In this document: piece after piece, positions 6,273 to 27,818 of the stretch | Layout: each line of letters begins with the position of its first letter | Numbering within the stretch: position 1 is the stretch's first letter | Source: Planktothrix tepida PCC 9214 | GTDB taxonomy: Bacteria > Cyanobacteriota > Cyanobacteriia > Cyanobacteriales > Microcoleaceae | Assembly (NCBI RefSeq): GCF_900009145.1 | Contig: NZ_LN889815.1 | Location: 63,566 to 100,410, forward strand | Direction of reading: 5' to 3' | DNA: 36,845 nucleotides | Position numbers and translations under genes: made by a program | Notes under the pieces: generated by a model | Seen by the model: the letters and a program-made list of their open reading frames with translations, nothing else | Databases searched by the model: none | What the model was told of the DNA's origin: nothing

Positions 6273-8351
6273 TTACATTTCAACATCAATTGCTTGGAAA
6301 ACCTGTTTAATCTTACCAGCAACAGAATAGTTTTGTTGTTGCCCGTAAAGTTCAACCGCTTTTCGATAAGCTGACCACATCTCCCGGGGATGTTCAACTT
6401 GAGAATCTGAGGTTTTAAGGTTGAGTAAAACCCAGCCGAGATTATGATAAGCCTCTGCATAATCAGGTTTTAATTGAATTGCTTTTTCTAACAATGAACG
6501 GGCTTGCCTCCACTGTCCTTGTTGCCCTAAAACTGTAGCGAGACGAAATAGAGTAAACGCATCAGGAGGTAATTTTTGGCTAGACGTTTCATAGGTTTGA
6601 ATTGCTTTTGATAAATCCTTGATCTGTTCAGAAGCAATCCCAAAATTCTGCACTGTCCAATGAGGGGCTGGTGACAGCCTGGAAGCCTTTTCAAAACTAG
6701 AAACTGCATCCGTCCATAGACCTTGTAAACCTTGTTTCCAACCTTTAAATCCCCAAGCAAAAGAACTATCTGGCACTTGAGTAATACACTCTTGTACACA
6801 TCGTTCTACATCCGTCGCCTGTTGAGTAACAACGGCTTTATCTAAAGCAACAATTAAACAAGGATAAACCCAGCGTTGAAGTTGCTGGCTTTGATTAGAT
6901 TGTTTAGACTTAAAAATAGCTTGTCTGCCATAACGAATTGCTGGTTTCCATTGTTGTTGATTAACAGAAATCCACGCTTGTAATCCTAATGTAAAGGCAG
7001 ATTCACTATCAAGTTGAATGGCTTGATTAATGCTTGTTTCTGCTTGTTGCCAATGGTTAGATTTTCCCAACGCCCAAGCTAAATTTGCTTGTATCCAAGC
7101 TTCGTAAGGAGAAAGATTAGCAGCCGTTTGTAAATAACGTAGGGCTTCTGACCAATTTGATTTCCGGCAATTAATTAATCCTAAAACTCCGTAACCTCTG
7201 CCGTCTTTAGGTTGTAATGAAATTGCTTTTTGAGCCACGATTTCAGCTTGGTGATCATCTAAATAACTCAACACCATTGCTAATTCAACGGCAGCTTCTC
7301 CATTATTGGGTTCATGAGTTAAACATTTCTGATAAGCATCAACGGCTTCTGATAATTTCTGTTCATTAGCAAATTGTCTAGCTCGTCGCAAGCTGGGAGA
7401 AACAAACTTTCCTTGTAGTGCATCAATTAATTCATCGGCAGTTTGAAAGCGTTCTTCTACCCGCATTCTTAACCCCATTAGAATGACTTTTTCGGTTGTC
7501 GGGTCAAGACTAGGGACAATTTGACGAGGGGGTTTTAAAGTATCTGTGTGAAGTCGATCAATCGCTTCAGGAGGAAGCTCTCCGGTTAATAATTCATACA
7601 TTGAAGCACACAAAGCATATAAATCGGTACTCGGCCCCCGTCTTCCTGTCTCACTATACTGTTCTATGGGTGCATAACCTCGTGTTAAAGTTTGGGTCAT
7701 TCTTTTGGTTTTGTTCGCAATAAACTCTCTGGCATTGCCAAAGTCAATGAGAACCGCTCTATCCTGCTGATCAATCATAATATTTTCGGGTTTAATATCT
7801 CGATGGAGCAATTGGTTTTCATGAATGACCTTTAAAGCCTGAGTTATTTCTATTAAATATTTTTTAACGCGAGCTTCTGGTAATCTTTTTTCAGTTTTTA
7901 AAATATCATATAAGGATTGACCCTTTAAAAACTCCATCACAATATAAGCTGTATTGTTTTCTGGAAAATAATCATAAACTTTAACAATATTAGGATGCTG
8001 GCATTTAGAGATGACTTGAGCTTCTGCAATAAACTTGGCAAGCTGCTCATTAATATCTTTAGGGGAAATCAAAGGAGACCAAACGACTGTTTTTCCGACT
8101 CGGCTAGATTTCTCTGGCCAGTTTTCTTTAATAGCAACTTCCCTAGAATTTTTTAAATCAATCCCTTTATAGGTAATACCAAATCCGCCTTCTCCCAATG
8201 TTTTTTCAATGCGATATTGGTTTTGTTTGAGTAAGGTATTTGGAGGTAAATGATGACTGGATTGTTCAGAACTTAGGGTATAACCACAGATTGTACACGC
8301 GATGCTCGTTTCTAAATTTTCCGTTAAACAGGCTGGACAAGTAACAGACAT
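6273..8351 (-). CDS. Zinc-ribbon Ser/Thr protein kinase with TPR repeats
   Basis: This 692-residue protein has three parts. Residues 1-25 form a small zinc ribbon (Cys5, Cys8, Cys19, Cys22). Residues about 46-312 are a Hanks-type kinase with all catalytic elements: glycine loop GEGGFG (53-58), Lys75 in VAIKEN, HRDIKPEN (183-190), DFG (203-205) and YAPIEQYS in place of the usual APE. From about 330 to 680 there are TPR-like helical repeats (for example LKPDYAEAYHNLGWVLLN). It should phosphorylate Ser/Thr on partner proteins, with TPRs as the docking surface. It is the last gene of the 17-gene minus-strand run, 26 bases after the kinase-FHA gene, whose kinase domain is closely similar. No transmembrane helix is seen, so it is probably cytoplasmic. 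Confidence 0.95.
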   Translation of the reverse strand: MSVTCPACLTENLETSIACTICGYTLSSEQSSHHLPPNTLLKQNQYRIEKTLGEGGFGITYKGIDLKNSREVAIKENWPEKSSRVGKTVVWSPLISPKDINEQLAKFIAEAQVISKCQHPNIVKVYDYFPENNTAYIVMEFLKGQSLYDILKTEKRLPEARVKKYLIEITQALKVIHENQLLHRDIKPENIMIDQQDRAVLIDFGNAREFIANKTKRMTQTLTRGYAPIEQYSETGRRGPSTDLYALCASMYELLTGELPPEAIDRLHTDTLKPPRQIVPSLDPTTEKVILMGLRMRVEERFQTADELIDALQGKFVSPSLRRARQFANEQKLSEAVDAYQKCLTHEPNNGEAAVELAMVLSYLDDHQAEIVAQKAISLQPKDGRGYGVLGLINCRKSNWSEALRYLQTAANLSPYEAWIQANLAWALGKSNHWQQAETSINQAIQLDSESAFTLGLQAWISVNQQQWKPAIRYGRQAIFKSKQSNQSQQLQRWVYPCLIVALDKAVVTQQATDVERCVQECITQVPDSSFAWGFKGWKQGLQGLWTDAVSSFEKASRLSPAPHWTVQNFGIASEQIKDLSKAIQTYETSSQKLPPDAFTLFRLATVLGQQGQWRQARSLLEKAIQLKPDYAEAYHNLGWVLLNLKTSDSQVEHPREMWSAYRKAVELYGQQQNYSVAGKIKQVFQAIDVEM

Positions 8352-8377
8352 TTGATTAACCCTCTATTATAAAAAGA

Positions 8378-9574
8378 TTAGAAAATTTGGAATAAGCAGC
8401 GCACTTTTCCAAAGGCTATTTCATCCCCGGAAAATAAGGGTTCAGGAGACGTAATTCTAGCCCCAAAGCGAGGCTGTCCTGAACGCTTGATAAAAATGCC
8501 ATTCTGAGAACCGAGATCTGAGATTTTCCATTGTTTTCCGTCTCGATAAATTTGTCCGTGCCGACGAGAAACAGTTTCATTTCCAACTAAAGGATTTAAG
8601 TCAATATGGACACTTCCTGTATTCAAATCTGAACGTCCAATAATGGTGCGATCGCTTGTTAAACTAAACTCAGCCAATAATTCACGATTGTGTATAAAGA
8701 CTAATTGAGCATTGTGGGTTTCTATAATTGAATTTAACGCTTGCATTAACGCTGTAACGCTTTGAAATCGATCCTCTAGTTTTCTTGCCATTCCTATTAA
8801 AAGAATTTGCTCAAAACGAGGATTAATCGAAGGAACAATTTGTCGAGGAGGGATGAGAGAATCAGCAGGATATCGTTCAGGAGGTTCAGGTGGCCACTGT
8901 CCGGTTAATAAATGATACATTGACGCACATAACGCATAAATATCCGTACCTGCGCCTCGCTTACTGGTAACGCTATATTGTTCTAAAGGAGCATACCCAG
9001 GTGTTAAAATCGCCGTCATTCTGCCCGTTTTTCCAGCGATAAATTCTCTCGTTGCCCCGAAATCAATTAAGATTGCTCTATCTTCTGCCGTGATAATAAT
9101 ATTCTCTGGTTTAATATCTCGATGGAGAAGATTTTTGGCATGAATGACCTGTAAAGCAGACGCGATTTGCATTAAATAGCGTTGAATGCGATTTTCAGGT
9201 AGTAGCCCTTCGGCTTCAAAAAGATCCGAAAGGAGCCTACCCTTAATAAATTCCATCACCGTATAAGCGGTGTTATTTTCCTCAAACCAATCATAAACTT
9301 TGACAATATTGGGATGAATACACTGAGATAAATATTGTGCCTCTCCTTTGAATTTTTGTAATTCTTCCTGCTGTTGTTTTCGAGTGGTATGGTGAGGCCA
9401 AATTACGGTTGTTCCTTGTCGCACTCCACTTTCTGGCCAGTTTTCTTTAATCGCAACAGTTCGAGAAGATTTTAAATCGATACCCCGATAAGTAATGCCA
9501 AACCCCCCTTTCCCTAGGGTGGTTTTAACTTGATATTGCTGTTGTTTAAGCAATGTACCAGGAGCTAATTCCAT
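8378..9574 (-). CDS. Ser/Thr protein kinase with C-terminal FHA domain
   Basis: This 398-residue protein has a kinase domain (about 14-280) with GKGGFG (21-26), Lys43, HRDIKPEN (151-158), DFG (171-173) and YAPLEQYS. A C-terminal FHA domain (about 300-398) shows the phosphothreonine-binding signature GRSD, then SRRHGQIY and LGSQNGIFI. FHA domains read phosphothreonine, so this protein can both write and dock on the same mark. The insert after the lysine (ENWPE...TTVIWP) is shared with the next kinase, pointing to duplication. The last 30 residues are almost the same as the end of the zinc-ribbon/FHA protein at 11418-11975. It sits 12 bases after the PP2C gene and 26 before the TPR kinase. No signal peptide or membrane segment is seen. 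Confidence 0.95.
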   Translation of the reverse strand: MELAPGTLLKQQQYQVKTTLGKGGFGITYRGIDLKSSRTVAIKENWPESGVRQGTTVIWPHHTTRKQQQEELQKFKGEAQYLSQCIHPNIVKVYDWFEENNTAYTVMEFIKGRLLSDLFEAEGLLPENRIQRYLMQIASALQVIHAKNLLHRDIKPENIIITAEDRAILIDFGATREFIAGKTGRMTAILTPGYAPLEQYSVTSKRGAGTDIYALCASMYHLLTGQWPPEPPERYPADSLIPPRQIVPSINPRFEQILLIGMARKLEDRFQSVTALMQALNSIIETHNAQLVFIHNRELLAEFSLTSDRTIIGRSDLNTGSVHIDLNPLVGNETVSRRHGQIYRDGKQWKISDLGSQNGIFIKRSGQPRFGARITSPEPLFSGDEIAFGKVRCLFQIF

Positions 9575-9586
9575 AAGTTCAAGATT

Positions 9587-11377
9587 TTAAAACAAGGCAG
9601 TTTCGATAGAACATTTCAACGCAACAAGGGTGGCATTATCACTGGCTCCCCTCTCCAAAACTTGCTCAATCGCTGTATTAACAGCCCCTTGTAAATTTTG
9701 CTGTTCATTAAAAATTGTAGCCAGTTCTTCATTAGAAACTAAATCCCAAACCCCATCAGAACAGAGGAGCAGAATATCACCATCCTCTAAAGTTAAAAAA
9801 CTTTCTCCTCCGAAACGGCTTAAGTCTTGGACATAACCTGGGCTTAATCTGCGTTTTGACCCTAAAGATTTTGTGAGAACATTGCGGTCAGGATGTTGTT
9901 GACTTTCTTGATATGAAATCTCACCACTAGCTAACAGCATTGCAACCATTGAATGATCTTCTGATAACTGGCAAATAATGCCTTTTCTTAAGAGAAGAAT
10001 GCGACTATCTCCAACATGGGCGATCGCCAATTCTCGCCCAACCGCAAACACAACACTAATAGTTGTCCCTCCATCCCTTACCGTATTAGATACCTGTTCA
10101 TTTGCAGCTTCGACTAGGGAAATTAACCACTCGCCTTGATGTAAAGCATGGTTTAAGTTTGCAGGAAATGCTGTTCCTAATACAGTTTCAACCGCTAATT
10201 GACTTGCCACTTCTCCTTGAGCTAAACCTCCCATGCCATCCGCAACAACCGCTAAAAGCCAAGGATCAGAATGACTAGCAGGCTGTTGACGAATACCGTA
10301 ATTATCTTCATTTTGAAGGCGACTTGTAGAAAGCCCTAGTGTTGAGCGGTTTGCCACTTCCCAGCGTACCTGAAAACTCCGTAAGGATTGTCGAGTTTCT
10401 ACTAAAAGACTGAGCAGTTGGGAGAGGGGAAAACGTTCTTCGGGGATAGAAGAAAGGGTGATGGTTAGAATTTGATAAATGCGGGGAATCTTGCTAATTT
10501 TTAAGTCAAGGCTATCAGCAGATTCCGGTATCCCTTCAAAGCGAGGAGGTAATTTTTGGTGCAAAGCCTGATAGAGTAAAACCCCCACAACATAGCTACT
10601 CATCGTCTCTGCAATTAAATGTCCTAATGCAATTTCAGGGGCGTAGTAATCTCCTATTAATCCACTATTAAGTTTTTCATTAACTGGATAAACCCCTGTT
10701 AAATCAAAAAACTGGATGGGTGTTCCCATTTCAATAAATTGGGGAAAAATGGAAATCACACACCAGCCTTTTTGATAAAGGGATTTGAAGAATTGGCAAA
10801 CTTGACTAGCCAACAATAAGCATTGTTCAGGAGAATTATTGTTTTGTAACCAAGCTTCTAAGGTGTTAGATTCACTCAAAAGTTCGCTCAGAACGATTAA
10901 TTTCTGGCTTGATATGTTTGCCCCAACTTCTTTTTCCTCATAATATACTTCTTCTAAGTATTCTGATTCATCTTCTAAGGGAGAGTGAGTATCGGGTTCT
11001 TCTAACAATTCTTTTGGAGAAGAAAATGCTTCTTCAGTTTGCAAAGGAGCTTTTTGCTCAGGAAGTTGTGAGCGAGAAGAAATAACAACTGACTCTTGTG
11101 TTTCCGAAGCTAATAACGCCGACACCATTTTATGGTAGCCCAGGATTTCTCGAAGTTGCAATTCTCGCTGTAGTCCTCCATCTGGAGAACCGACCCGCAG
11201 GAGTCCGAATTGGCTTTGGTTATCTTCAGGATCACGATTTAGAATGATGACTTTAAAGTAGTCTACATCCGTAAAGTGGCCTAAATAAGATTGAATTTCA
11301 ACTTGAAAATCCTTGATGGTGAAGATAAAATGTTCTTGAATAACTAGAGATTCAGAAGAGTCAGTTAGTGAGTTCAT
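9587..11377 (-). CDS. Pseudokinase-PP2C protein phosphatase fusion
   Basis: In this 596-residue protein, residues about 340-590 are a PP2C-type metal-dependent Ser/Thr phosphatase with the metal-binding motifs RLQNEDNY (353-360), VADGMGG (378-384), GDSR (456-459), CSDGVWD (539-545) and GASDNAT (577-583). The N-terminal 330 residues are unusual. After an acidic linker (about 100-150) comes a region with the shape of a kinase C-lobe: GWCVISIFPQFI where HRDIKPEN would be, FFDLTG at the DFG position, YYAPEIALG, and YVVGVLLYQALHQKLPP. It lacks the catalytic HRD aspartate and a glycine loop, so I read it as a pseudokinase that may target the phosphatase. It lies between the FHA protein and the kinase-FHA gene and is the obvious eraser for the two kinases. 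Confidence 0.9.
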   Translation of the reverse strand: MNSLTDSSESLVIQEHFIFTIKDFQVEIQSYLGHFTDVDYFKVIILNRDPEDNQSQFGLLRVGSPDGGLQRELQLREILGYHKMVSALLASETQESVVISSRSQLPEQKAPLQTEEAFSSPKELLEEPDTHSPLEDESEYLEEVYYEEKEVGANISSQKLIVLSELLSESNTLEAWLQNNNSPEQCLLLASQVCQFFKSLYQKGWCVISIFPQFIEMGTPIQFFDLTGVYPVNEKLNSGLIGDYYAPEIALGHLIAETMSSYVVGVLLYQALHQKLPPRFEGIPESADSLDLKISKIPRIYQILTITLSSIPEERFPLSQLLSLLVETRQSLRSFQVRWEVANRSTLGLSTSRLQNEDNYGIRQQPASHSDPWLLAVVADGMGGLAQGEVASQLAVETVLGTAFPANLNHALHQGEWLISLVEAANEQVSNTVRDGGTTISVVFAVGRELAIAHVGDSRILLLRKGIICQLSEDHSMVAMLLASGEISYQESQQHPDRNVLTKSLGSKRRLSPGYVQDLSRFGGESFLTLEDGDILLLCSDGVWDLVSNEELATIFNEQQNLQGAVNTAIEQVLERGASDNATLVALKCSIETALF

Positions 11378-11417
11378 AGAATTAGAGGAAAGCGAAGGAA
11401 GATGGATTAATTAAGTT

Positions 11418-11975
11418 TTAAGGGCTTTGAAACAGGAAACGAATTTTAGCGATCGCAATTTCATCTCCTGAATTTAAAGTTTCTGGTAAAGTAATTCTGG
11501 CTCCGAAACGACTTTGACCAACAGGTTTAATAAATACCCCATTGGTTGAACCTAAATCTTTAATTTTCCATTGACCCCCTTCATAATAAATTTCGGCATG
11601 GTTGCGAGAAATTGTATCTTCACCTGCCCATCCTTCTAAATCAACATCCACTGGCCCAGTATCAGGATCAAAACGTCCAATAATTGCACTGCCATCTAAG
11701 GTAAATTCAGAAGTAGGGCAACCAGATTGTTTAGCAATTAATCGGGCTGTTCCTGATACAAATGGCGAGGAAGGAATGCTGGGTTGAGGCGATGATGCCG
11801 GAGGAGTATAGGGAGGAGCAGGATTCATAAAATCAGGGATAGAAGGAGGCATTGAATAATCGGGGGTTGCTACTTCTGTCACCGTTACTGATGCTAGTAA
11901 TTCAGCACCACAGGCTTCACAAAATTCCGTTCCATCTAAATTTTCATAACCACAAGCAGAACAAGAAACAGACAT
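11418..11975 (-). CDS. Zinc-ribbon and FHA domain adaptor protein
   Basis: This 185-residue protein has an N-terminal zinc ribbon (CSACGYENLDGTEFCEACG, residues 5-23), a proline/serine-rich flexible linker (about 35-75) and a C-terminal FHA domain (about 80-183) with GRFD, SRNHAEIYY and LGSTNGVFI. It has no enzymatic domain, so it is a phosphothreonine-reading adaptor. Its FHA end (QSRFGARITLPETLNSGDEI) closely matches that of the kinase-FHA protein, and its zinc ribbon resembles that of the TPR kinase. The two therefore look like rearranged modules of one set. A TAGGAG ribbon-binding sequence sits ten bases before the ATG. The upstream 134-base gap contains degenerate TCTCCTG-type heptads (about 12080-12102), a common filler in cyanobacterial intergenic DNA. 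Confidence 0.9.
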   Translation of the reverse strand: MSVSCSACGYENLDGTEFCEACGAELLASVTVTEVATPDYSMPPSIPDFMNPAPPYTPPASSPQPSIPSSPFVSGTARLIAKQSGCPTSEFTLDGSAIIGRFDPDTGPVDVDLEGWAGEDTISRNHAEIYYEGGQWKIKDLGSTNGVFIKPVGQSRFGARITLPETLNSGDEIAIAKIRFLFQSP

Positions 11976-12109: not shown

Positions 12110-13492
12110 TTACGTTCCAGATGCTTTGCGAATTTGTTCATCGGTGATTTCTTGGTTAATATCATTATTGTTCATCCGAACAGTTTTTCCTTTAGAACCC
12201 ATCTTGACAGTTTTGCGAGTTCCTGAAGAAATCTTCTGAGTTTTTCGCAGTTCATTTTGAACTTCCGTCAGGGTTTCTGTCATGGCATTATTTCCAATTT
12301 TGACGGTCATTCGGCGGGCAGTTTCTAACAGGTGTTCGGCTTGTTGTGGATTGTGATCTGCAATTTGAGTAGCTTGTTTAACCAATTGAGCGATATTACA
12401 TTGTTGTAGATATCCCATCACTTCTTGATCAACTTGAGCGCCCATTTGTCCGGCGACAAACTGAACTACAACATTTTGTGGAGGCAGTTCGCCTCGTCGC
12501 TTTTGCCCTGGAATTTCATACGTTAAACCGAGTTGGGCAACACGCACACGAGCTTGAGGGCGACTTTCTAGGGTAAATTCTAGTATAAAAACCGTTTCAT
12601 CATTCGCAATTGCATTACCAATAGGGTGAGGATCAAGGGTTAAAGGAAATTCGGCTTGTTCAGGATAAGCCCGAACAATTCGAGTGAGTTTAGCCCCTTT
12701 TACAGTTTTCACGGTTAAGGCTAAATTTGTGATTACTTCTTGTTGGGCTAGACTAAATTCTTCAATAATTGTTGCAGGTAAATCTGCAATAGAAACAGCA
12801 TTTCCTGTGGCATTTTCAGGAACAATGGGAAACAGTTTTCCACCTGTAGTATCGCTCAAATGAATCAGCAAGTCTTCGGCATATTCACCTACACCTAATG
12901 CTGTAATCGGAATATTATTGAGCGCGAATTCTTGAGCCAGTTCACGACATTGATCTTCATCAAAGGTTTCACCATCAGTGAAAATTAAAGCTCGTTTAAT
13001 AGTCATATTTTGTGGTGCTAATAAATTCAGACCATGACGCATTCCTAAGCCCATACGAGTACCACCGGAATAGTTTCTTAAACAGGCGATCGCATCCTCT
13101 AATTGACTGACTTGAGTTGCTGGAGTTAAACCGATGAGAGTAGACGCAGAGTCATCAAATTGAATAATAGCAACCCGATCATCCGGCTTTAGCCTACCGG
13201 ATTTAACTAAGGCGAATAAAGAGTCAATGACAATATCAATTTTAGAGGTTACTCCTGTCACTTCTTGATAGCTATTCCCATCAACAAAAACGCTTCTCCC
13301 TGTCGGTTGAGGAACACCAATGATGCCTTCATACATTGAACCACTGGTATCAATCACAAAGGCAAAAGTTGTTGAAGGGCGAGTTTGAGCAACTTCCTGC
13401 GTGGGCCGCACTTTTAACATTAAAAACAATTTTTGGTCTGGAGAATTAGCAGGTAAAAACTCACGGTGAGGGGTAATTGAAACATTTAACAT
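12110..13492 (-). CDS. Soluble vWA-domain protein with threonine-rich C-terminal tail
   Basis: This 460-residue protein has a von Willebrand A domain (about 40-230) with an intact metal-binding site: DTSGSM (48-53), the threonine in GGTRMGLG and the aspartate in FTDGE. After it come a beta-rich region (about 240-345) and a helical segment. The C-terminal tail has two similar basic threonine motifs, RKTVKMG and GKTVRMN. There is no signal peptide. vWA domains mediate metal-dependent protein binding. With a kinase and PP2C alongside, this matches the vWA-phosphatase-kinase combination known from TerY-P type triads. The tail threonines are plausible kinase targets and FHA ligands, which is my inference. 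It lies 44 bases after the unrecognised 127-residue gene. Confidence 0.9.
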   Translation of the reverse strand: MLNVSITPHREFLPANSPDQKLFLMLKVRPTQEVAQTRPSTTFAFVIDTSGSMYEGIIGVPQPTGRSVFVDGNSYQEVTGVTSKIDIVIDSLFALVKSGRLKPDDRVAIIQFDDSASTLIGLTPATQVSQLEDAIACLRNYSGGTRMGLGMRHGLNLLAPQNMTIKRALIFTDGETFDEDQCRELAQEFALNNIPITALGVGEYAEDLLIHLSDTTGGKLFPIVPENATGNAVSIADLPATIIEEFSLAQQEVITNLALTVKTVKGAKLTRIVRAYPEQAEFPLTLDPHPIGNAIANDETVFILEFTLESRPQARVRVAQLGLTYEIPGQKRRGELPPQNVVVQFVAGQMGAQVDQEVMGYLQQCNIAQLVKQATQIADHNPQQAEHLLETARRMTVKIGNNAMTETLTEVQNELRKTQKISSGTRKTVKMGSKGKTVRMNNNDINQEITDEQIRKASGT

Positions 13493-15526: not shown

Positions 15527-15577
15527 GATTTTAGTTTTATATAGCTGTTTTATCAATTTATAATTCAAATGATAAAC

Positions 15578-18689: not shown

Positions 18690-18698
18690 GAATTTCTC

Positions 18699-19988: not shown

Positions 19989-21012
19989 CGTTAGAGGTGT
20001 TCTGGTCTAGTGGATAAAAAGTCAGCAAATAGTTATGCCGTAAATGAATTTCACGACGAGATCCTAGACGATCTCCATTAACTTCGATGGTGTGATAAAA
20101 CTTGGGGTTAGGAACTAAAACCGCTTCACGGGTTTTAATTTCTAAATCGGCTGCGTGCAGAGGTAAACCAGGGATACGAATATTCGCTTTTTCAGATGAT
20201 CCGATTCTAATTTTACCCTGAGTGGGTAATTGAATCGATAACCCTTCTTCAATTTCATCGGCTTCGCTATCGCTGACAAATTTCAGTTGGGAAGTATCAA
20301 TCCCAGGATAGGATTTACTGTTAGTATTTGCGTTGGGATCAAAATCTTCATATTTTGGCCCGGTGTATTCAAATCCGGCTCCGGCTCTCAGGGCTGCCAT
20401 GTAGCTTGGAGAAGTGGAAATACTAAATACAAAACCAAGCAACATTCCCAGAATAGAAAACCCAACAGGATCTTCAATGCCTTTAAAAGCGGGGGGAAAA
20501 GCGCCAATTTGTCGCAAAATTTCAAAAATGAGTGCTGCGGATAAACTGGCAATGATACTACCCGTTAAACTGGTTAATAACCGTTTTCGGTAGCGTTTGC
20601 GATCGCCTGCTTCTATGCTATGCCATCGCCAAGTGATGCCCTCAGCTAGACCAATAGAACTGCCAATTAGCAGCCAACAAACGATTCTCAAAATTCGAGT
20701 ATCAAAGCGAATCTGAGGCAGTAGAACAATTTGAGAAATTCCGCCCGTAACTAAACCAGACAAGATTCCGAATCCCATAGCAATCATAACAGGAATCACG
20801 GCAATTTGCAAGCTTAATTTTGGTCGAGTGGGACTACTAATTAAAACTTCTGTTAAGACCATTCCAATAGCCAAAGAGGAGGCAATGCAAGGAAATAACA
20901 CAACTTCAGGAAACTGTTTCAGCACTCCTAAATCGGTTAAAAAGATTTGACCGATATTCCAGCCAATTAAGGCGGAGGTAATTCCAGCTAGGATGTAAAA
21001 GTAAGCTCTCAT
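19933..21012 (-). CDS. Polytopic membrane protein with FHA-like C-terminal domain
   Basis: This 359-residue protein has five or six membrane helices in residues 1-215 (for example YFYILAGITSALIGW and CWLLIGSSIGLAEGI). A linker rich in Asp/Ser/Asn leads to a soluble beta-rich domain (about 245-350) containing IRIGSSEKANIRIPG. This is the same GSSE signature as in the fused vWA protein at 13976-15526 and resembles an FHA start, although the canonical SRxH histidine is replaced (LHAADLEI). It may be a degenerate FHA domain. An AAAGGA ribosome-binding sequence precedes the ATG. It overlaps the following vWA gene by 56 bases and follows the large GTPase-associated-like gene by 32. Confidence 0.82.
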   Translation of the reverse strand: MRAYFYILAGITSALIGWNIGQIFLTDLGVLKQFPEVVLFPCIASSLAIGMVLTEVLISSPTRPKLSLQIAVIPVMIAMGFGILSGLVTGGISQIVLLPQIRFDTRILRIVCWLLIGSSIGLAEGITWRWHSIEAGDRKRYRKRLLTSLTGSIIASLSAALIFEILRQIGAFPPAFKGIEDPVGFSILGMLLGFVFSISTSPSYMAALRAGAGFEYTGPKYEDFDPNANTNSKSYPGIDTSQLKFVSDSEADEIEEGLSIQLPTQGKIRIGSSEKANIRIPGLPLHAADLEIKTREAVLVPNPKFYHTIEVNGDRLGSRREIHLRHNYLLTFYPLDQNTSNDEKIYRFVYYNRFLDTQA

Positions 21013-21044: not shown

Positions 21045-23162
21045 TTATTTTAATTGTGCTTTTATTTTATTCGCAGTGTCACCGTCTTTATCAATAATTC
21101 CATCGGCTAGTAAGCCATTGTTTTTTTGATATGTATATATAGCATTAACCCACGTTTTCTTTTTTTGAGGGTCAAGATTTGTTATAGAATCAGAATTTGT
21201 ATTTTTTAAACCTAGAATCTGCATAATTTTCTGTTCATCTTGCTTATTGACACTTCCATCAGCCTTTTTAATAAGGTCTTCAATTGCTAATTTTGTCCTC
21301 TGATCGAATACATTGACTGCCTTAGTCTCATCTAAACCTGCTGGAGGTTTATTAGATTGAGTAGCTGAAGGGCTAGGGGGATTAGGTGGATTTGTTGGGT
21401 TATCTTTTTTCTCTATGGGATTACTAGACGGAGGCGTAGGAGTAGGTGAAGGTTTAACACTTACTGTTTCTGGTTGTTTATCAGCCTTTGCTAGACCAAC
21501 CGTTAACCCTGCACGAAAACCCAATCCTGTAAATATAAATAAAATAACTAAAACCGACCAAACTGGTACTTGCATAGGAAATTCCCCACATTTAATGTTT
21601 ATAAGTAAAGTTTTTTTGAAAGCCAAAAACAATTTTTCTCTTTTAGTTACTTTCCTTTTTAATTGAATCCCATAAAAATTAGGATTACCTCCATTTTGTT
21701 TAGGCAAGTTAGAAATTATTTTTTTAGAAATTTTACCTTTTCCATAAGCAACATAAGAAAAAAATGCAGCTAATTCTGGTGGTTTTTCTAACTTTTGAAA
21801 TAAGTCAGCTAACGGTTTGTAGTATTCTATTTTAGGTGTATAATCATTTTTCCAGAAAATGCTTAACTGTTCTAAAATTGGTTTCCATCTAGGATGAATG
21901 TTATGTTCAAAAGATAAATTATTTTTTCCCTTTGTTCGGAGCATTAATTTCAAATCACGCTCTAGCTCAGGAATAAATTTTTCGTCATAATACTTCTTCC
22001 AAAGTCCATTCGGTAGTTGTAATAACCAGACAGCAACCTCGACTTGTTCAGGATGTTCAAGTAAGCTAGGAATTAGGATTTTGACCCCCTCAACTAGATT
22101 GTTAATTAATCTTGGAGTTTGATTAGAAACTTGTCTGAGAGCATTGATAATTTCAGTTTGGAAATTCTCAGAAGTTTGATAATGATCATCCTGTTTACCC
22201 CGCTTAGACATCCAAATTAAATAGTCCGATAACATCTCTGGAATTAAAATGGCTTGCAGGGTTAAAAGCCTCACCATTTGGGGACTATAAATTCCTTGAG
22301 ATCGCCCTTGAGCCGCCCCTTGACTGTCAAATAAAGATTTCCAGTAATTCTCATTAATTTGGGGATCATTCAAAGCATTCTCTAAAATGAGAATCTGCTC
22401 AATCTTGACCTGTTCTCGACTACTCAACCCTTTAATTGCAGACTTAATCGACTGTTCCCCAGAAACATTAACGGTATATTGGGGTGTAATAGCAGTGATT
22501 CGTTGTAACAGTTGTTCAGCTTTTTCACTGGCAGGTTGAATTACTTGAAACCGTGTCGGTTGTTCTAACGCTTCCACTTTAAACGCCCAAGAAATGGGTT
22601 GATTTCCTGCAATTTGTCTTGCCATTTCATTTAAAATTAGAGGCGCGCAGGGTTGCTGCCAAGGAATAATAATCGGTATAGGATTATCAAGTAACAATTT
22701 AAACTCATCCCGTAAATTGATAGGGGATGAACCTGTTTTTGGATAAACAGTTGGACTGTCAATCGTTTTAGCATCATAGGGATTAAAAACCGGAAAGGGG
22801 CGTTGATTAATAATCCAAGCTAAAATATTCCCCAGATTGCCAATTTCTTTACACAAAAAATAGCGATACATCGAAGCACCCCGTCCCCGATCATCTCGAC
22901 CTTTTGTAACAACAGCAATTACTGACCATTCCTCACCATTGTCCGATATTTCACGACCAATAACAGCAGGTTCATCACTAGAAGCTCCCTCTGCAACAGC
23001 AAATTCTCGGTTAGTAATCGCTCTTTGAACTGCCACAGGAATTTGAGCAAGGGTTCTATTCATATATTCCCCTGTAAACCCCCGCGAAACCCAACCCGTG
23101 CCAACTCTTTCAACTTGAATTCCGGTGCTAAATTCGTGAATTTCAATCACTGATGGATTCAT
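21045..23162 (-). CDS. Large membrane protein resembling GTPase-associated (GAP1-like) proteins
   Basis: In this 705-residue protein, residues 1-115 form a beta-rich N-terminal domain (SRGFTGEYMNRTLA, then a cysteine- and glycine-bearing stretch). A long, mainly helical region runs to about 530, followed by one membrane helix at about 532-552 (VWSVLVILFIFTGLGF), a Pro/Ser/Thr linker, and a C-terminal segment (about 610-705). That segment ends TYQKNNGLLADGIIDKDG, which resembles a peptidoglycan-binding-like helical module. It lies four bases after a GTPase gene. The layout recalls the GAP1 proteins reported beside paired GTPases, but that assignment is from memory of gene order and fold impression, not a clear motif. 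The likely topology is a cytoplasmic N-terminal part with an external wall-binding tail. Confidence 0.65.
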   Translation of the reverse strand: MNPSVIEIHEFSTGIQVERVGTGWVSRGFTGEYMNRTLAQIPVAVQRAITNREFAVAEGASSDEPAVIGREISDNGEEWSVIAVVTKGRDDRGRGASMYRYFLCKEIGNLGNILAWIINQRPFPVFNPYDAKTIDSPTVYPKTGSSPINLRDEFKLLLDNPIPIIIPWQQPCAPLILNEMARQIAGNQPISWAFKVEALEQPTRFQVIQPASEKAEQLLQRITAITPQYTVNVSGEQSIKSAIKGLSSREQVKIEQILILENALNDPQINENYWKSLFDSQGAAQGRSQGIYSPQMVRLLTLQAILIPEMLSDYLIWMSKRGKQDDHYQTSENFQTEIINALRQVSNQTPRLINNLVEGVKILIPSLLEHPEQVEVAVWLLQLPNGLWKKYYDEKFIPELERDLKLMLRTKGKNNLSFEHNIHPRWKPILEQLSIFWKNDYTPKIEYYKPLADLFQKLEKPPELAAFFSYVAYGKGKISKKIISNLPKQNGGNPNFYGIQLKRKVTKREKLFLAFKKTLLINIKCGEFPMQVPVWSVLVILFIFTGLGFRAGLTVGLAKADKQPETVSVKPSPTPTPPSSNPIEKKDNPTNPPNPPSPSATQSNKPPAGLDETKAVNVFDQRTKLAIEDLIKKADGSVNKQDEQKIMQILGLKNTNSDSITNLDPQKKKTWVNAIYTYQKNNGLLADGIIDKDGDTANKIKAQLK

Positions 23163-23166
23163 AATT

Positions 23167-24087
23167 TTAATCCTTATCTAAGTCTTTGTGACGATCGCCT
23201 GTGCAGAGCCAATAAATGGGAGCAACTAAACCGAAAGGTCGCCACCGTTTCGGATCTTTAATAATAGAAGTTGTGCCATCGCGATCGCGGGTTAACCGTT
23301 TAGAATTGGGTTCAGGAAATCGAGTTCCTAACATTCCAAAGGCAGAAGTTGTAAAATAATCGACTTGACCTCCTCCCATATTTTCCCAAGCTTGTAATTT
23401 TCGATGAACTTGCGGAAATCGCATAATTGCTAACTCTCTAGGTTTATGGCGATTTACCCACAATTCTGATTGTTCACATTTAGACATAACAAAGGCAATT
23501 CGTCGCTTACTCATGCCAATATCTGTCCGATCTAATGCCATCAAAAACTTATCTAAGCCATTGGCATATTCAACATCTTTCCGATGGGTTGTACCATCCA
23601 CCAGAAACATTATCCCTGATGCTTGTAAACAATCTTCTAGGTAATCTTCTAGTTGAGAATTTCCGGTTTTATACAGTAAATCGCTGAAAAATTCCCCCGC
23701 ATAATCTTTACAACTAATATTAAGCTTAACCAGTTGCGATCGCAAGGTTGCTTTCGCATCTTTCCACGAAAATTGACCTTTCAAAACAATACTTAATGTG
23801 TAGTCTTTTACCTCTTGCGCCATTGCATTTAAGTCAGTGGGTTCTAGTTCTAACCCCTGTTCTAAAATGTTTTGAGCTTTGGTAATCAGTTCATTTCCCG
23901 CCTCTCCAACCGGAATCACACTTTGTACTGGACTATTGGGATCAGCATTTGGCCAATAGGCTAAAGAAGCCATATAAGCTGTTTTGCCAGAACCGCGATC
24001 ACCTATCACCCGTAACACCGCATCTTTATCAATCGATTGGGGTTCCGTTGAACCTTTTTTCGGATTTGTTTTGAGCCAATCTAGCAT
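23167..24087 (-). CDS. P-loop GTPase-like protein, SKCE variant (third in the trio)
   Basis: This 306-residue protein has a Walker A loop GDRGSGKT (29-36), a switch II/Walker B equivalent KDYAGEFF with Asp128 and Gly131, and SKCE (202-205) where GTPases usually have NKxD. The C-terminal part (PNSKRLTRDRDG, then RWRPFGLVAPIYWL) is shared with the next protein upstream, so the two are paralogs. Because the base-specifying Asn is Ser, GTP specificity is uncertain; the family appears close to those called double-GTPase (DO-GTPase) in comparative studies. It has no membrane segment. It lies six bases after its paralog and four before the large membrane protein, a very tight coupling. Confidence 0.82.
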   Translation of the reverse strand: MLDWLKTNPKKGSTEPQSIDKDAVLRVIGDRGSGKTAYMASLAYWPNADPNSPVQSVIPVGEAGNELITKAQNILEQGLELEPTDLNAMAQEVKDYTLSIVLKGQFSWKDAKATLRSQLVKLNISCKDYAGEFFSDLLYKTGNSQLEDYLEDCLQASGIMFLVDGTTHRKDVEYANGLDKFLMALDRTDIGMSKRRIAFVMSKCEQSELWVNRHKPRELAIMRFPQVHRKLQAWENMGGGQVDYFTTSAFGMLGTRFPEPNSKRLTRDRDGTTSIIKDPKRWRPFGLVAPIYWLCTGDRHKDLDKD

Positions 24088-24093
24088 GATTTT

Positions 24094-24939
24094 CTATCCT
24101 TTTTTACTCAGCCAATACAGAGGGTCAATCATGTTATAAGGATGCCAATGGGAAGCCTCCCTTAAAACAGAAGCTTTGCCGTCTTTCCCCTGTTCATCAA
24201 CTCGGTTGGGGCGAGGATCAGTTCTTCGGAGAACTCCAAAGGTTGATATTGCATAAAACCTTAAATTTTTAGAATGAATTCTTTCTTTTAAAGTCGCTTT
24301 AGTATTCGGTAAATGAACTCCAAACAAATCAATTTCAGGTTCAATTCTTCCTGGCCAAAGCTCTCCTCGTTCACACTTACTCATGGCAATTGCTAATTTT
24401 AAATCGTTGAGCCGATCATTAACATCCATGAGGTCAATAAATCGATTCATTACCCGATTATAAAAATTATCAGTTCCCTTTTTCCATTCCGGTAATAAAA
24501 TTAAACAACCTACAATATCTTTCATCAAGCATTCCTTAATGAATTCTTCATGAATAGAATCCGATTGGTTAGGTTCAGCAATTTTTTCTTGTTTAGGTTC
24601 AGCAATTTTTTCAAACACTTCCCCTGGGTAATCTCGCACATTCAAGTGAAACGATTCTGTTTTACTGAAGATATTCTTTTTGATTTCAATATTAAAAGAA
24701 TAAATGGGCAAATTATAAACGGATTGAATTGCATCCCCAATCACGGTGGGTTCTACAGATTCTCCTTGACAGATAATATTTTCTGCTTTATCGGCAATTG
24801 CCCTAGAATCATCATTTAGAGGTTGCAGGTTAAAGTTTTTTGATTTACTACTCAGTCGCTTTTTATAAGCTAAAGCGGCTAAATAGGTTGTCTTTCCCGA
24901 AGCTCGTGGCCCAATAATGCAAATGTTGCCCATTTTCAC
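24094..24939 (-). CDS. P-loop GTPase-like protein, SKCE variant (second in the trio)
   Basis: This 281-residue protein has Walker A GPRASGKT (10-17), VRDYPGEVF with Asp103 and Gly106 as the switch II motif, and SKCE (187-190) as the base-recognition loop. It ends HWHPYNMIDPLYWLSKKG, like its downstream paralog. A short internal duplication, KIAEPKQ/KIAEPNQ (111-125), lies after switch II in a variable loop. An AAGGAGAG ribosome-binding sequence sits just upstream. By family knowledge such proteins are nucleotide-dependent switches. Pairing with the neighbouring GTPase suggests a heterodimer, as found for other paired P-loop GTPases; this is my inference. Confidence 0.82.
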   Translation of the reverse strand: MKMGNICIIGPRASGKTTYLAALAYKKRLSSKSKNFNLQPLNDDSRAIADKAENIICQGESVEPTVIGDAIQSVYNLPIYSFNIEIKKNIFSKTESFHLNVRDYPGEVFEKIAEPKQEKIAEPNQSDSIHEEFIKECLMKDIVGCLILLPEWKKGTDNFYNRVMNRFIDLMDVNDRLNDLKLAIAMSKCERGELWPGRIEPEIDLFGVHLPNTKATLKERIHSKNLRFYAISTFGVLRRTDPRPNRVDEQGKDGKASVLREASHWHPYNMIDPLYWLSKKG

Positions 24940-24946
24940 TCTCCTT

Positions 24947-25702
24947 TTATTTAGCTAAAAAGCTTCCAAAGTAAATCCAAGGAAGTTCTAATAAATCTCG
25001 ATTTTGAATGCTGGTAATAAAGCATCTGACCGCTAACCCCGAAACTTTTTTATTAATTTCTTTGATTTGGCTTTGAATCGGTTTAAAATATTTTTGAAAA
25101 ATATAATCATGTCGTTGCTGCCAGTTCATTCGAGAACGGTTAGGAATATAAGCCAGTTGGCTTGCTTCTTTTTGCAAATCACAAAACAAATCTGCTTTAT
25201 TTAAACAAAGAGCTAAATGGCGAATTTTGGGACAATCTTGATGGAAGAAATCAACCCATCGATTAAACCGATTACACCATTGTTCTTGGGTAATAAAGAG
25301 GTCAGGATCATAACCTGGTTTAATCAATTCTCGATAGGGAGGAACAATTAATAAAATCCCCTCACTTTGGCGCAAATTTTCTAAAAATGTCTTCCACTGA
25401 TCAGAATTTTTAGATTGCCAAGTTTTGCGCCAGATTTCACCCGGAGTATCGATCCAGTCCAAAGAAATTTGCTTAGAACCCGTTGGGAGAGTGACTTGTA
25501 TTTCTAAAGTCCTTTCATAACTGGCTTGTTCAGCATCAGTTGCCCTTGTTCGTTGATGTTCGTGATCAAATAGGAATCCTTTCAGATATTCATAGTCTGG
25601 ACTGATCACTTTGACATAATTGCCACTAGGATGAGCTAACTCCATTGCTAAGGATGTTTTGCCCGTTTCGCGATCGCCAATGTAAATAACTCCCACTAAC
25701 AT
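24947..25702 (-). CDS. Small P-loop GTPase-like protein (first in the trio)
   Basis: This 251-residue protein has Walker A GDRETGKT (9-16), the classical switch II WIDTPGE (Asp85-Thr-Pro-Gly88) and a canonical base-recognition motif NKAD (168-171). It is the most orthodox of the three and is most likely a true GTPase. It has no membrane segment. An AGAGG ribosome-binding sequence precedes the ATG. The gene follows a 137-base gap with a hairpin and is seven bases ahead of the second GTPase. Its role is unknown; the order small GTPase, two variant GTPases, GAP1-like protein suggests a regulated assembly in which this member may sense or gate the other two. Confidence 0.83.
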   Translation of the reverse strand: MLVGVIYIGDRETGKTSLAMELAHPSGNYVKVISPDYEYLKGFLFDHEHQRTRATDAEQASYERTLEIQVTLPTGSKQISLDWIDTPGEIWRKTWQSKNSDQWKTFLENLRQSEGILLIVPPYRELIKPGYDPDLFITQEQWCNRFNRWVDFFHQDCPKIRHLALCLNKADLFCDLQKEASQLAYIPNRSRMNWQQRHDYIFQKYFKPIQSQIKEINKKVSGLAVRCFITSIQNRDLLELPWIYFGSFLAK

Positions 25703-25839: not shown

Positions 25840-27408
25840 TTATGTTGAATAATCAGTTAAAAACGGTTTATCACTAGGGGTTTGGGACGCACTCACTCGA
25901 ACTAAAGCACTACGTCCACTGGGTAACGCTGAATAGGGACGATTACTAATTTCCCGAACGCCTAAAACCGGAACTCGTTCATAACCGATGTTGCGTTGGT
26001 TCTTAGGACTGAACCCCAAAACTCCCTGTGTTGACATACTCATCACCTGCCTTTGATATTCACCGAGTTGTTGACTTAACCATTCAGCCGTTTTATAACT
26101 GACATTTTGTAAAAAAATTTGGGTGCGACAGTTATTCAGTGCGGCCATTGTTTTTTCATTAAATTGATCGATAGATTGACACATGATAAAAACTCCAGCT
26201 TTAGCATTTCGGCCAATAGCAGTCAATTCTTCATAATCAATATTTTTTAATCGTGGAGCTTCATCACAAATAATATAAGTCGGAGTCCAATTATGGTTGG
26301 GATTTCTCATCCGACGATACATCACATTCATTACATAACTAATCATTACACCTGCTAAGGAAGAACCAAACTTTCCATCAGCTAAGGATTGACCAATAAC
26401 CAGGGTATGTTTAGAGGTTCCATTTAAAGCAGGAAGTAAATAAATTCCAGTCTTTCCATCACAAATAGACTTAACATGGGGATCTTTAAAAGGACTCAAT
26501 TTATTTTGTAAAAAGCTAATATCTAACCCAAACCGATCATCAGGAAGGGTAAGATAGGAACAGAGATCAGAAGCCCATTGATTAGCTTGGGGGATATGAT
26601 TTAATAAAGCTTGTACCCCATCCCTATCCATGATTAATTCTGATAAATAACTGGGATCAAATTTAATCACATTTTGCCGTCTAGCTTCTACAACTAAACC
26701 GAGAAAAGCAGTAAGCCATAGAATATCTCGTTTCCAAAAAGCAGCATTGTGATCCGTTTCTCCAAAATTACCATAAATCGCTTCAGCGATCGCTCGAATT
26801 TCTCTTTCACTCCCAAATTTTTCTAGTTCCTCTAAAAAGTTCCAGACCACTCGTTTTCGAGCCGAACTTAAATCCCAACAGAGTAATTGTGATCCAGTTT
26901 TCGCAGCTAGAGTTGTTAACCGATCTGTTAAAAATCCAGCGGCATCAACACAAATCAAATTTCCATTTTGCATTAGATTCTCAGCCGATTTTAGTAATAA
27001 CTCGGTTTTACCTGAACCTGTTGGCCCTACAATTAAAACGTGCTGATGTAAAAAAGAGCTAGGAATCCAAACATCATTCCCTAAATTAGCTTTGTTACCT
27101 TTCCATCTCAGAGATCTCCCTAACCAAAAGTCGCCATTGCTGTGATGACTGTTCGCTAAACTGCTAATTTCTTTTGGGTAAGCTGTTTGTGAATAATCAA
27201 AAAGTTCCCGATATTGAATTAATGGCTTAAGAACTTCTCCAGGGCCAAGAATAACAATATTTTTACGGTTGATAGAAGTCCCTACAAACTTCAAGCTTTC
27301 CCCTGTTACCCAACCTAATCCTTTGAGTAAAAGTCCGAGCAGTTGTACCACAAGCCAGCCCAAAATTTGGAAGGTAGATGTGATGATCTCGAAAATAAAT
27401 CTTTCCAT
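25840..27408 (-). CDS. VirD4/FtsK-like membrane ATPase
   Basis: This 522-residue protein has a hydrophobic N-terminus (about 8-35) as a membrane anchor, then a RecA-like motor domain. Walker A is GPTGSGKT (128-135); a strand with CVDAAGFLTDRL, Walker B in IICDEAPRL (about 373-381) and a sensor-like strand FIMCQSIDQFNEK follow. The last 100 residues (AALNNCRTQIFLQNVSYKTAEWLSQQ) look like the end of TraG/TraD/VirD4 coupling proteins. Such ATPases recruit and pump DNA or protein through a membrane channel. There is no relaxase, type IV secretion gene or conjugation module nearby, so a conjugative role is unlikely. A housekeeping cell-division FtsK is also excluded by the short length and the missing gamma domain. 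Confidence 0.85.
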   Translation of the reverse strand: MERFIFEIITSTFQILGWLVVQLLGLLLKGLGWVTGESLKFVGTSINRKNIVILGPGEVLKPLIQYRELFDYSQTAYPKEISSLANSHHSNGDFWLGRSLRWKGNKANLGNDVWIPSSFLHQHVLIVGPTGSGKTELLLKSAENLMQNGNLICVDAAGFLTDRLTTLAAKTGSQLLCWDLSSARKRVVWNFLEELEKFGSEREIRAIAEAIYGNFGETDHNAAFWKRDILWLTAFLGLVVEARRQNVIKFDPSYLSELIMDRDGVQALLNHIPQANQWASDLCSYLTLPDDRFGLDISFLQNKLSPFKDPHVKSICDGKTGIYLLPALNGTSKHTLVIGQSLADGKFGSSLAGVMISYVMNVMYRRMRNPNHNWTPTYIICDEAPRLKNIDYEELTAIGRNAKAGVFIMCQSIDQFNEKTMAALNNCRTQIFLQNVSYKTAEWLSQQLGEYQRQVMSMSTQGVLGFSPKNQRNIGYERVPVLGVREISNRPYSALPSGRSALVRVSASQTPSDKPFLTDYST

Positions 27409-27446
27409 TGTTTTCTTTCATCCAAACCATCGGAAATATTAATCTT

Positions 27447-27818
27447 CTAATGGGCAGAAGGACTAGAGGATGAGGGGGAAGAGCCAGGTATGGTTCCTGA
27501 ATTTTGCTGAGTGGTAGACTGCTCTTTTAATTTCGCCAACCTTTTTCGGCCGTCATCCATAGAAGTTGAAGATATTGGCGTTTGTCCTGAAGCAGATTGA
27601 GAATTAGGCTTTGTTTTCAGAGCGTGGAGCAGTTGTTGAGCAGTTGTTGGAGATGAGGAAGGACTGGGTGTAGTTCCTGCTGTTTGTTGAGTAGACCGAC
27701 TTCCTCCTTTAACAAGCTCTGCATTGTCTTGTTCAATTTGCGATTGTCTTTTGTTATCAATGCTACTCTCTGAGTTTGGAATCTCAGTTTTTCGAGAATC
27801 TCTTCTTGGTTTTTCCAT
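27447..27818 (-). CDS. Short disordered Ser/Thr/Gln/Pro-rich protein
   Basis: This 123-residue protein is almost entirely low in complexity: Ser, Thr, Gln and Pro dominate (for example TTPSPSSSPTTAQQ). There is no predicted domain, membrane segment or signal, and the start is basic (MEKPRRDSRKTE). An AAGGAT ribosome-binding sequence and a reasonable ATG (27818) support translation. It is the first gene of the run and lies 38 bases before the VirD4-like ATPase. A disordered Thr-rich chain at the head of a kinase/FHA operon could be a phosphorylation target, but this is conjecture. The 212 bases upstream (27819-28030) are noncoding and probably hold the promoter of the run; I could not identify boxes. 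Confidence 0.6.
   Translation of the reverse strand: MEKPRRDSRKTEIPNSESSIDNKRQSQIEQDNAELVKGGSRSTQQTAGTTPSPSSSPTTAQQLLHALKTKPNSQSASGQTPISSTSMDDGRKRLAKLKEQSTTQQNSGTIPGSSPSSSSPSAH

Follow-up and report, generated by a model that had tools for sequence, protein, structure and literature searches.

A mobile cyanobacterial gene cassette joining three DO-GTPases to a phosphorylation quartet, with a possible role at the cell envelope

The 36,845-nucleotide stretch of DNA considered here, and referred to as the window, comes from the cyanobacterium Planktothrix tepida PCC 9214, which has a 6.78-Mb genome (contig NZ_LN889815.1, positions 63,566 to 100,410, i.e., G000:C59:63566-100410 in our own numbering). 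It contains a cassette of genes, g02 to g15 together with g17, that is near certain to be one co-inherited system. At the sequence level, its components are three DO-GTPases that are paralogues and have their GTP-binding motifs intact, a partner protein in the membrane (g05), an overlapping pair of genes for membrane proteins (g06 and g07), and lipoproteins, along with a cytosolic quartet made of a vWA protein (g13), a zinc-ribbon FHA protein (g14), a PP2C phosphatase (g15), and a kinase (g17).

Gene content of the locus

Eighteen open reading frames (ORFs) span positions 6273-27818 of the window, all on the minus strand; this count includes a low-complexity ORF of 123 amino acids (27447-27818) and omits two short nested ORFs. 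A preliminary description of the same DNA had recognized the one-strand array, which stands, as the longest plus-strand ORF within these limits (of those with at least 80 amino acids) has 120 amino acids; its count of 17 genes does not. The genes g10 and g09 overlap by 1 nt and g07 and g06 by 56 nt, while gaps longer than 60 nt lie between g14 and g13 (134 nt) and between g02 and g01 (137 nt). Internal promoters and terminators were counted as often in the cluster as in shuffled sequences. In the 5' to 3' direction the ORFs are as follows, with counts referring to the 38 stretches defined in the next section.

g00, 27447..27818, minus strand: short low-complexity ORF (123 amino acids) preceding g01, unlikely to belong to the core; of the stretches compared, USR001 alone has a related ORF
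g01, 25840..27408, minus strand: VirD4/TraG-like membrane ATPase, accessory (T4SS-DNA_transf, E 1.8e-18)
g02, 24947..25702, minus strand: DO-GTPase1-like protein with an NKAD motif (DO-GTPase1, 27.8 bits against a cut-off of 27)
g03, 24094..24939, minus strand: DO-GTPase1 (31.5 bits against 27)
g04, 23167..24087, minus strand: DO-GTPase2 (29.4 bits against 27)
g05, 21045..23162, minus strand: partner protein downstream of the GTPases, with a conserved cytosolic part, one transmembrane segment, and a variable C-terminus
g06, 19933..21012, minus strand: polytopic membrane protein (4 hydrophobic segments) with a weak FHA-like C-terminal region
g07, 18699..19988, minus strand: vWA protein (VWA_2, E 1.5e-6) with an N-terminal signal, read from the sequence, and a C-terminal transmembrane segment
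g08, 17922..18689, minus strand: lipoprotein related to g09, with the lipobox read from its N-terminus; no Pfam match
g09, 16993..17874, minus strand: lipoprotein with an ARC6-like IMS domain (PF13355, E 1.2e-21), the lipobox again read from its N-terminus
g10, 15578..16993, minus strand: membrane-anchored serine hydrolase of the beta-lactamase/penicillin-binding protein (PBP) fold (Beta-lactamase2, E 3e-10); 9/38 stretches
g11, 13976..15568, minus strand: vWA protein (VWA_4, E 1.8e-12) with an N-terminal transmembrane segment and, by hydropathy, a C-terminal transmembrane block related to g06
g12, 13537..13920, minus strand: conserved protein of 127 amino acids next to g13, which it adjoins in 25/25 cases
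g13, 12110..13492, minus strand: cytosolic vWA protein (VWA, E 5.9e-15) with a conserved threonine tail (residues 411-440)
g14, 11418..11975, minus strand: zinc-ribbon FHA adaptor (FHA, E 1.5e-12)
g15, 9587..11377, minus strand: PP2C phosphatase (E 2.7e-15), with an N-terminal region read as a degenerate kinase
g16, 8378..9574, minus strand: Ser/Thr kinase with an FHA domain, accessory (Pkinase, E 1.6e-39; FHA, E 3.1e-12); 3/38 stretches
g17, 6273..8351, minus strand: zinc-ribbon Ser/Thr kinase with TPR repeats (Pkinase, E 2.5e-46; TPR), usually the last cassette gene; 24/38 stretches at ≥330 bits

Matches above the Pfam cut-offs comprise two Ser/Thr kinases, a PP2C phosphatase, two true FHA domains, three vWA proteins, a T4SS-DNA_transf ATPase, a Beta-lactamase2 serine hydrolase, and an ARC6-like IMS domain on one lipoprotein. 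The enzymatic labels given in the preliminary description, including serine hydrolase and VirD4-like ATPase, are therefore backed by Pfam, as are the kinases, PP2C, vWA proteins, and two of its FHA readers. The FHA-like membrane domains that it placed in g06 and g11 are weak, with the Ki-67 FHA domain giving the best two PDB sequence matches of the g06 profile (E 0.07 and 0.085), and a profile-profile comparison of the FHA-like end of g06 with true FHA domains gave no match. None of the 18 cluster proteins could be named by an NCBIfam equivalog above its cut-off.

Regarding the three proteins first described as GTPase-like, all of them match a Pfam DO-GTPase model (DO-GTPase1 or 2), exceeding the cut-off by 0.8 to 4.5 bits. 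This small margin is not a fluke, because DO-GTPase2 is matched at E ≤ 0.01 by 19/19 g04 members and by 18/19 g03 members. Moreover, the DxxGE motif is invariant in the 19 rows available for each of g02, g03, and g04, and so is the P-loop, which in g04 has the form GxxxxGKT; g03 and g04 are clear relatives, and the three GTPases are encoded in tandem. A conserved Glu in Walker B is presented as the mark of DO-GTPases in the founding paper (PMC7159879). By their Pfam matches, their conserved Walker B/G3 Glu, and their side-by-side paralogues, g02-g04 are members of the DO-GTPase family; no zinc-ribbon match was found on any of them.

The gene that follows the GTPases, g05, encodes in the window about 500 conserved residues, followed by one predicted transmembrane segment and a variable end. 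Similarity to PG_binding_1 appears in 5/20 g05 members at E ≤ 1 (best 2.6e-6), and the window protein reaches 17.1 bits, under the 23-bit cut-off of that family. The preliminary description took g05 to be GAP1-like, an identity that finds no support at the level of hidden Markov models (HMMs); the resemblance is limited to its position after the last GTPase. Specifically, no GAP1 model was matched at E ≤ 1 by the 20 g05 members or by the window g05 (among 25 of 47 families listed), PF20013 (GAP1-N2) had no match at E ≤ 1 in the window's own genome, and in 194 genomes the GAP1-N2 model found nothing over its cut-off and one weak match below it, with the control Corynebacterium glutamicum over the cut-off.

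The remaining envelope components show internal kinship: g06 homologues match the g11 profile (E ~1e-6), and g09 homologues match that of g08. By longest ORF, g07 overlaps g06 in 27/32 stretches. A lipobox pattern is present in 36/53 g08/g09 rows, a figure in which start sites are unrefined and four G328 rows are counted twice. No family match was found for g12, whose single PDB match has an E value of 0.95.

Conservation, order, and mobility of the cassette

The distribution of the cassette was assessed by searching a phylum sample of 386 cyanobacterial genomes with g04, g05, g06, and g12. Matches were found in 28 genomes for g04 (three weak), 21 for g05, 21 for g06 (one weak), and 19 for g12; all 19 g12 genomes also carry g06 and g04, and 18 of them carry g05. 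Pairwise co-occurrence of the four genes gives Fisher p values of ~1e-25 to 3e-30, which ignore relatedness and take in the four weak matches (g06: G242; g04: G090, G187, G367). Three genomes of the window's own genus had no match to g05, g06, or g12.

Gene order was then compared in neighborhoods taken from the marker matches, three named contigs (USR001, PMM_0036, and Okeania), and five plasmids. Of the 44 stretches, 38 contain three or more cassette families and come from 30 genomes or plasmids, and six were left out (G109, G157, G019:C26, G143, G357, and the place in G233 with g06-g07 alone); ORFs below 45 bits and kinases below 330 bits do not enter the order counts. Adjacency is nearly complete for g02-g03 (32/32), g03-g04 (33/33), g04-g05 (33/33), g05-g06 (30/31), g06-g07 (32/32), g12-g13 (25/25), g13-g14 (23/23), g14-g15 (22/22), and g15-g17 (21/23), although the stretches were picked for g04, g05, g06, or g12, so that adjacency among these, unlike the co-occurrence counts, is partly selected. 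The resulting near-fixed order is three GTPases, g05, g06, g07, lipoproteins, g11, g12, vWA, FHA, PP2C, and kinase. The g05-g06 exception is a cassette split into two divergent groups (G145), and of those for g15-g17, one is a stretch taken only up to g15, in which a kinase at another place looks unrelated, and the other is a circular plasmid, with the kinase on the far side of the record start. Copy number varies among the neighborhoods compared, with one to three g05 and zero to four g08/g09 lipoproteins. The proposal that the array forms a single system, which called for a check of its conservation, is borne out by this order and co-occurrence across cyanobacterial genomes and plasmids.

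The ends of the cassette are fairly clear, since no outside ORF family recurs in more than 4/25 stretches compared. Within the window, g01 and g16 are accessories because each occurs in only 3/38 stretches. The VirD4-like ATPase had been counted as a core part, which its distribution contradicts: g01 is found in 2/194 genomes, the other copy being only 29% identical, and it has no match at 1e-10 among plasmid records, so we also reject it as a plasmid transfer gene.

The cassette can also be taken apart. In the genome of G233, three separate loci hold, respectively, the GTPases with g05, g06 with g07, and the genes from the lipoproteins to the kinase, and the persistence of these separated modules argues for a functional tie beyond linkage. 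G051 has the GTPases and g05 only, with no g06 or g12 match in the genome, while G235 has g02-g07 and no g12 match in the genome; the G235 locus and one G320 locus run into contig ends ~1 kb past g07. Finally, a shorter type (G087:C1, G048:C499, and G245) consists of three GTPases, a g05-like protein, g06, g07, and a g12-like protein, and the phospho-quartet was not seen in these three stretches. All three adjoin an ORF of 544-555 amino acids, an AAA ATPase in G087, and have upstream an ORF of 195-196 amino acids, which in G087 is a radical-SAM protein. The stretch L156:5085-18943 represents this shorter type, with the radical-SAM gene upstream, the AAA ATPase downstream, and no phospho-quartet.

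The cassette is mobile. By tblastn, g04 and g06 match the same 8 of 72,556 plasmid records, which come from Nostoc linckia NIES-25, Tolypothrix PCC 7712 and 7601, Microchaete diplosiphon NIES-3275, two Trichormus variabilis strains, Gloeothece verrucosa PCC 7822, and Nostoc ATCC 53789; two of the eight are typed as conjugative and four as mobilizable. Among the five plasmids examined, the full g02 to g17 set is present on those of T. variabilis, Tolypothrix, and G. verrucosa, the N. linckia copy is without g10 and g11, and the Nostoc ATCC 53789 copy crosses the record end. On plasmid B of T. variabilis ATCC 29413, the cassette takes up ~20 of 35.8 kb (AVA_RS27770 to AVA_RS27835 plus the kinase AVA_RS27920, which we take to be Ava_B0009). 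A 2007 kinase survey describes Ava_B0009 as a TPR kinase (PMC2176072). Conversely, at least six genomes (G002, G121, G284, G145, G233, and G051) have cassette genes on contigs of at least 3.7 Mb. An empty insertion site could not be shown in sister genomes: over 40 kb around its locus, G255 matches the window region only at a CAP-domain gene, its other short tblastx matches being noise.

Some surroundings of the cassette may be recorded here. Beside it, at positions 63-5936, the window has a Tn3-family transposase, a helix-turn-helix/zinc-ribbon gene, a tyrosine integrase, a partial second Tn3 transposase, and a partial CHAT gene. On the other side are a short repeat (34525-34653) that matches both strands of two congeneric genomes (G157, G262) dozens of times and is probably similar to a miniature inverted-repeat transposable element (MITE), and a TPR protein of near-identical 40-residue repeats (34807-36843) interrupted by the window end. 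On a Tolypothrix plasmid (L179:1607-14065), CHAT, HigB, caspase, SUMF1-type, GUN4, and MoxR genes lie upstream of the cassette, as in other predicted conflict systems.

The threonine tail and the second DO-GTPase locus

The most distinctive sequence of the quartet is the tail of g13, with consensus RKTxKISxGTRKTVKMGAKGKTVKM; no other stretch of 27 residues is as well conserved in an alignment of 25 proteins. The KT motif of the tail occurs at least twice in 26/26 g13 ORFs, in no other cassette family, and in 1/1879 other ORFs. Three residues, Thr425, Thr428, and Thr437, are invariant in 29/29 aligned proteins, including Deinococcus relatives and a paralogue from the second locus described below, but of the Lys/Arg positions in the tail just one is invariant, which favors phosphorylation over mere charge; the Thr418 position is Ser in Deinococcus. 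In cassette g13, the residues around Thr428 and Thr437 are spaced KTx[KR][hydrophobic], which fits a reader with the pThr+3 specificity of FHA domains; the paralogue and Deinococcus retain this spacing only in part. As for the FHA protein g14, its SRxH and NG residues are invariant in 10/10 rows (nine g14, one g16). The Arg after Gly, the phosphate-contacting residue of the FHA 'GR' motif, is kept in the window but in only 3/22 homologues from other stretches, so that most g14 proteins may bind phosphothreonine in an altered way or not at all. The g13 tail is thus a strong candidate phospho-site whose reader is uncertain.

The quartet is also found outside the cassette. Among the 40 plasmid records listed, of 158 matching g15, only eight cyanobacterial and three Deinococcus records cover at least two thirds of the query. 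Three Deinococcus records (L182:10001-15973, L183, L184) encode a vWA protein that is 43% identical to g13 and has the same kind of tail (SSKTISLGTAKTLKIGAK, for example); next come a kinase, a zinc-ribbon FHA protein, and a PP2C phosphatase, although the D. radiodurans record splits zinc ribbon and FHA into two annotated ORFs. By order and annotation, the L182 genes are equated with DRA0331-DRA0334. Of these, DRA0331 (VWFA), DRA0333 (Zn-finger and FHA), and DRA0334 (PP2C) are reported in one study as up 3.7 to 4.3 fold on oxyR disruption (PMC2225504), and another paper mentions DR_A0332 where it deals with kinases sensitive to irradiation (PMC10572868).

A second locus, C59:11309-32625 (L190, L192), lies on the same contig as the window, and its g13 paralogue (C59:16031-17434) is 46 kb to the left of it. 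In addition to this tailed vWA protein, the locus encodes ThiF/JAB, a zinc-ribbon FHA protein, a PP2C phosphatase with a kinase-like N-terminus, a Clp_N-kinase, a CHAT-DO-GTPase fusion, a kinase, three more DO-GTPases, two partner proteins, and an STK-TPR protein with a CHAT-like C-terminus; one CHAT is assigned by Pfam, while the second CHAT and the second kinase come from sequence or the g17 profile. The PP2C protein is related to g15 and has a Pkinase match in the matching N-terminal region, and by profile no relation was found between the partner protein and g05. Thus, a single genome pairs the quartet with DO-GTPases at two loci that differ greatly. This link is strengthened by two proteins of related genomes, a 560-residue Ser/Thr kinase (Pfam) fused to a g04-like GTPase (profile; L163:8729-10411) and a 1224-residue GUN4-DO-GTPase protein (L162:10048-13722). 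Relatives of the second-locus GTPase occur on three cyanobacterial plasmids, where the neighboring genes are annotated as anti-phage dCTP deaminase and HigB and BrnT toxins (Geminocystis), CHAT, Hsp70, and dynamin (Anabaena 90), and Hsp70 (Calothrix).

Proposed function and relation to known systems

We tentatively propose that the cassette is a mobile, envelope-anchored, phosphorylation-gated DO-GTPase switch with a role in conflict, and as a whole mechanism we would place this a little below an even chance. In such a switch, the periplasmic parts (the g07 vWA protein, the lipoproteins, g10, and the C-terminus of g05) would read disturbance of the envelope or peptidoglycan, the kinase would phosphorylate g13 at Thr425, Thr428, and Thr437, and PP2C would reverse this, setting a threshold. 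Phosphorylation may then alter tail binding by the FHA adaptor and load the vWA protein and g12 on the membrane complex, at which point the GTPases, bound to g05 on its cytosolic face, would switch and thereby make the complex assemble or open. The outcome would most likely be to limit an invader, i.e., a phage or a competing plasmid, or to protect the envelope.

Judging by the mobility of the cassette, its patchiness, and the company of GTPases and quartet, its most probable role is in conflict at the envelope. A number of observations weigh against the proposed switch. No recognizable effector (nuclease, TIR, protease, or pore) is present in the cassette, the PADLOC matches in 10/18 proteins scanned are to generic kinase, PP2C, and ATPase models, g04 matches no record of the phage collection, and no viral contig carrying the cassette was confirmed. 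In addition, g05 has no detectable relation to GAP1 at HMM level or, by profile, to the partner of the second locus, the 'GR' Arg position is Ile or Val in 18/22 g14 homologues, and the Deinococcus quartet, which does without the other cassette genes, is tied in two papers to the oxidative or radiation response (PMC2225504, PMC10572868), fitting stress as well as defense.

Envelope stress is accordingly a live rival. The cassette would then be a maintenance module, not a defense system, in which the phospho-circuit tunes a peptidoglycan or outer-membrane complex under oxidative or osmotic stress. Its envelope-facing make-up, with a PBP-fold hydrolase, lipoproteins, and a peptidoglycan-binding-like C-terminus, suits this role, as do the induction of the Deinococcus genes on oxyR disruption and the listing of the quartet kinase noted above, and a paper on PSP predicts DO-GTPases in membrane-related stress, in some psp operons (PMC11237479). 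A very patchy (~20/386 genomes), plasmid-borne distribution is not what a housekeeping function would lead one to expect, and the CHAT-DO-GTPase protein at the second locus of the same genome also weighs against this rival; we consider the stress role rather unlikely, less probable than the conflict switch.

There are two further explanations. A module of plasmid biology, serving surface exclusion, stabilization, or control of DNA transfer, with the VirD4-like ATPase as a remnant, would accord with the share of the 35.8-kb plasmid B that the cassette occupies, which exceeds one half, and with the typing of the plasmid records that carry it as conjugative (2/8) or mobilizable (4/8). We find it improbable: the large contigs of at least six genomes also carry the cassette, g01 is without a plasmid relative at 1e-10 and does not stand beside the cassette on the five plasmids examined, and the cassette contains no relaxase or mating-pair gene. 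In G. verrucosa, a type IV secretion system (T4SS) gene with a distant match of 28 bits does lie ~5 kb away on the opposite strand. Alternatively, two or three independent operons (GTPase/g05, g06-g07, and the phospho-quartet) could be travelling together by chance, as the separable modules of G233, G051, G235, the shorter type, and the lone Deinococcus quartet might suggest; the inclusion of all 19 g12 genomes within the g06 and g04 genomes, the persistence of the separated G233 modules in one genome, and the order fixed in distant plasmids and chromosomes leave very little room for this.

Returning to the conflict switch, its boldest form, speculative and in our estimate unlikely, is a plasmid-borne trans-envelope immune machine. 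Three heteromeric GTPases would sit on a wall-anchored partner and be armed by phosphorylation of the vWA tail, envelope damage by phage or conjugation would trigger GTP-driven containment, and the tail-quartet would be a portable "arming" module, used with other effectors (the CHAT locus) or alone (Deinococcus). DO-GTPase systems have been predicted, on comparative grounds, as immunity-like devices of multicellular bacteria, and the conserved, compact cassettes of the laboratory strains T. variabilis ATCC 29413 (plasmid B) and Tolypothrix PCC 7601 and 7712 make that prediction directly testable. The invariant threonine tail offers a precise site to mutate, and joins cyanobacteria, Deinococcus, and the CHAT-linked locus through one phospho-signaling module. 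In the open-access literature searched, judged mostly from listings, we recognized no description of the cassette, and the searches naming DO-GTPase systems listed no experimental test of them.

Several known systems resemble the cassette in part. The TerY-P triad comprises vWA, PP2C, and kinase and is associated with tellurite-resistance-type (TerB/C/D) genes. Both have vWA, PP2C, and a zinc-ribbon kinase in one gene group; here, FHA stands between vWA and PP2C, a threonine tail is added, and Pfam scans of the cassette proteins list no TerB, TerC, or TerD domain. The Deinococcus quartet shares the tailed vWA protein (43%), the zinc-ribbon FHA, the PP2C with an extra N-terminal part, and the zinc-ribbon kinase, but has no GTPases, g05-g07, lipoproteins, or g12 annotated within ~10 kb. 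The second locus likewise combines DO-GTPases with a similarly tailed quartet, and differs in its CHAT-DO-GTPase fusion, its STK-TPR protein with a CHAT-like end, its ThiF/JAB, and its partners. MoxR-vWA ternary systems (VMAP etc.) have MoxR beside vWA; by Pfam no MoxR AAA+ ATPase is present in the cassette, with a MoxR gene near it on one plasmid. Type IV secretion places VirB-type genes beside a VirD4-like ATPase, and among the 29 window proteins scanned with Pfam no component other than g01 was found.

The GAP1-N2-type DO-GTPase systems are also close. Kaur et al. 2020 (PMC7159879) define DO-GTPase-GAP1 systems, for which they predict a role in conflict, and describe a third theme, with kinase, PP2C, and vWA, as "restricted to actinobacteria". 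The earlier comparison of the array with TerY-P triads and GTPase-centered conflict systems was apt, since the GTPases are DO-GTPases and their link to kinase, PP2C, and vWA is published there. The likeness extends to the succession of DO-GTPases and partner protein, an active-type kinase, PP2C, a stand-alone vWA protein, membrane proximity, and peptidoglycan-binding-like parts. In contrast to that theme, as described there, the cassette is cyanobacterial, has three GTPases without a zinc-ribbon match, a partner without a GAP1 match, and no FNIII match (no fn3 is listed for the 18 cluster proteins at E ≤ 0.1, g17 being covered by its best 25 of 35 families), and adds the FHA adaptor, g06-g07, lipoproteins, PBP-fold hydrolase, and g12. 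The cassette is a DO-GTPase system by its GTPases, yet it fails the GAP1 test, and is a variant that differs from the published ones.

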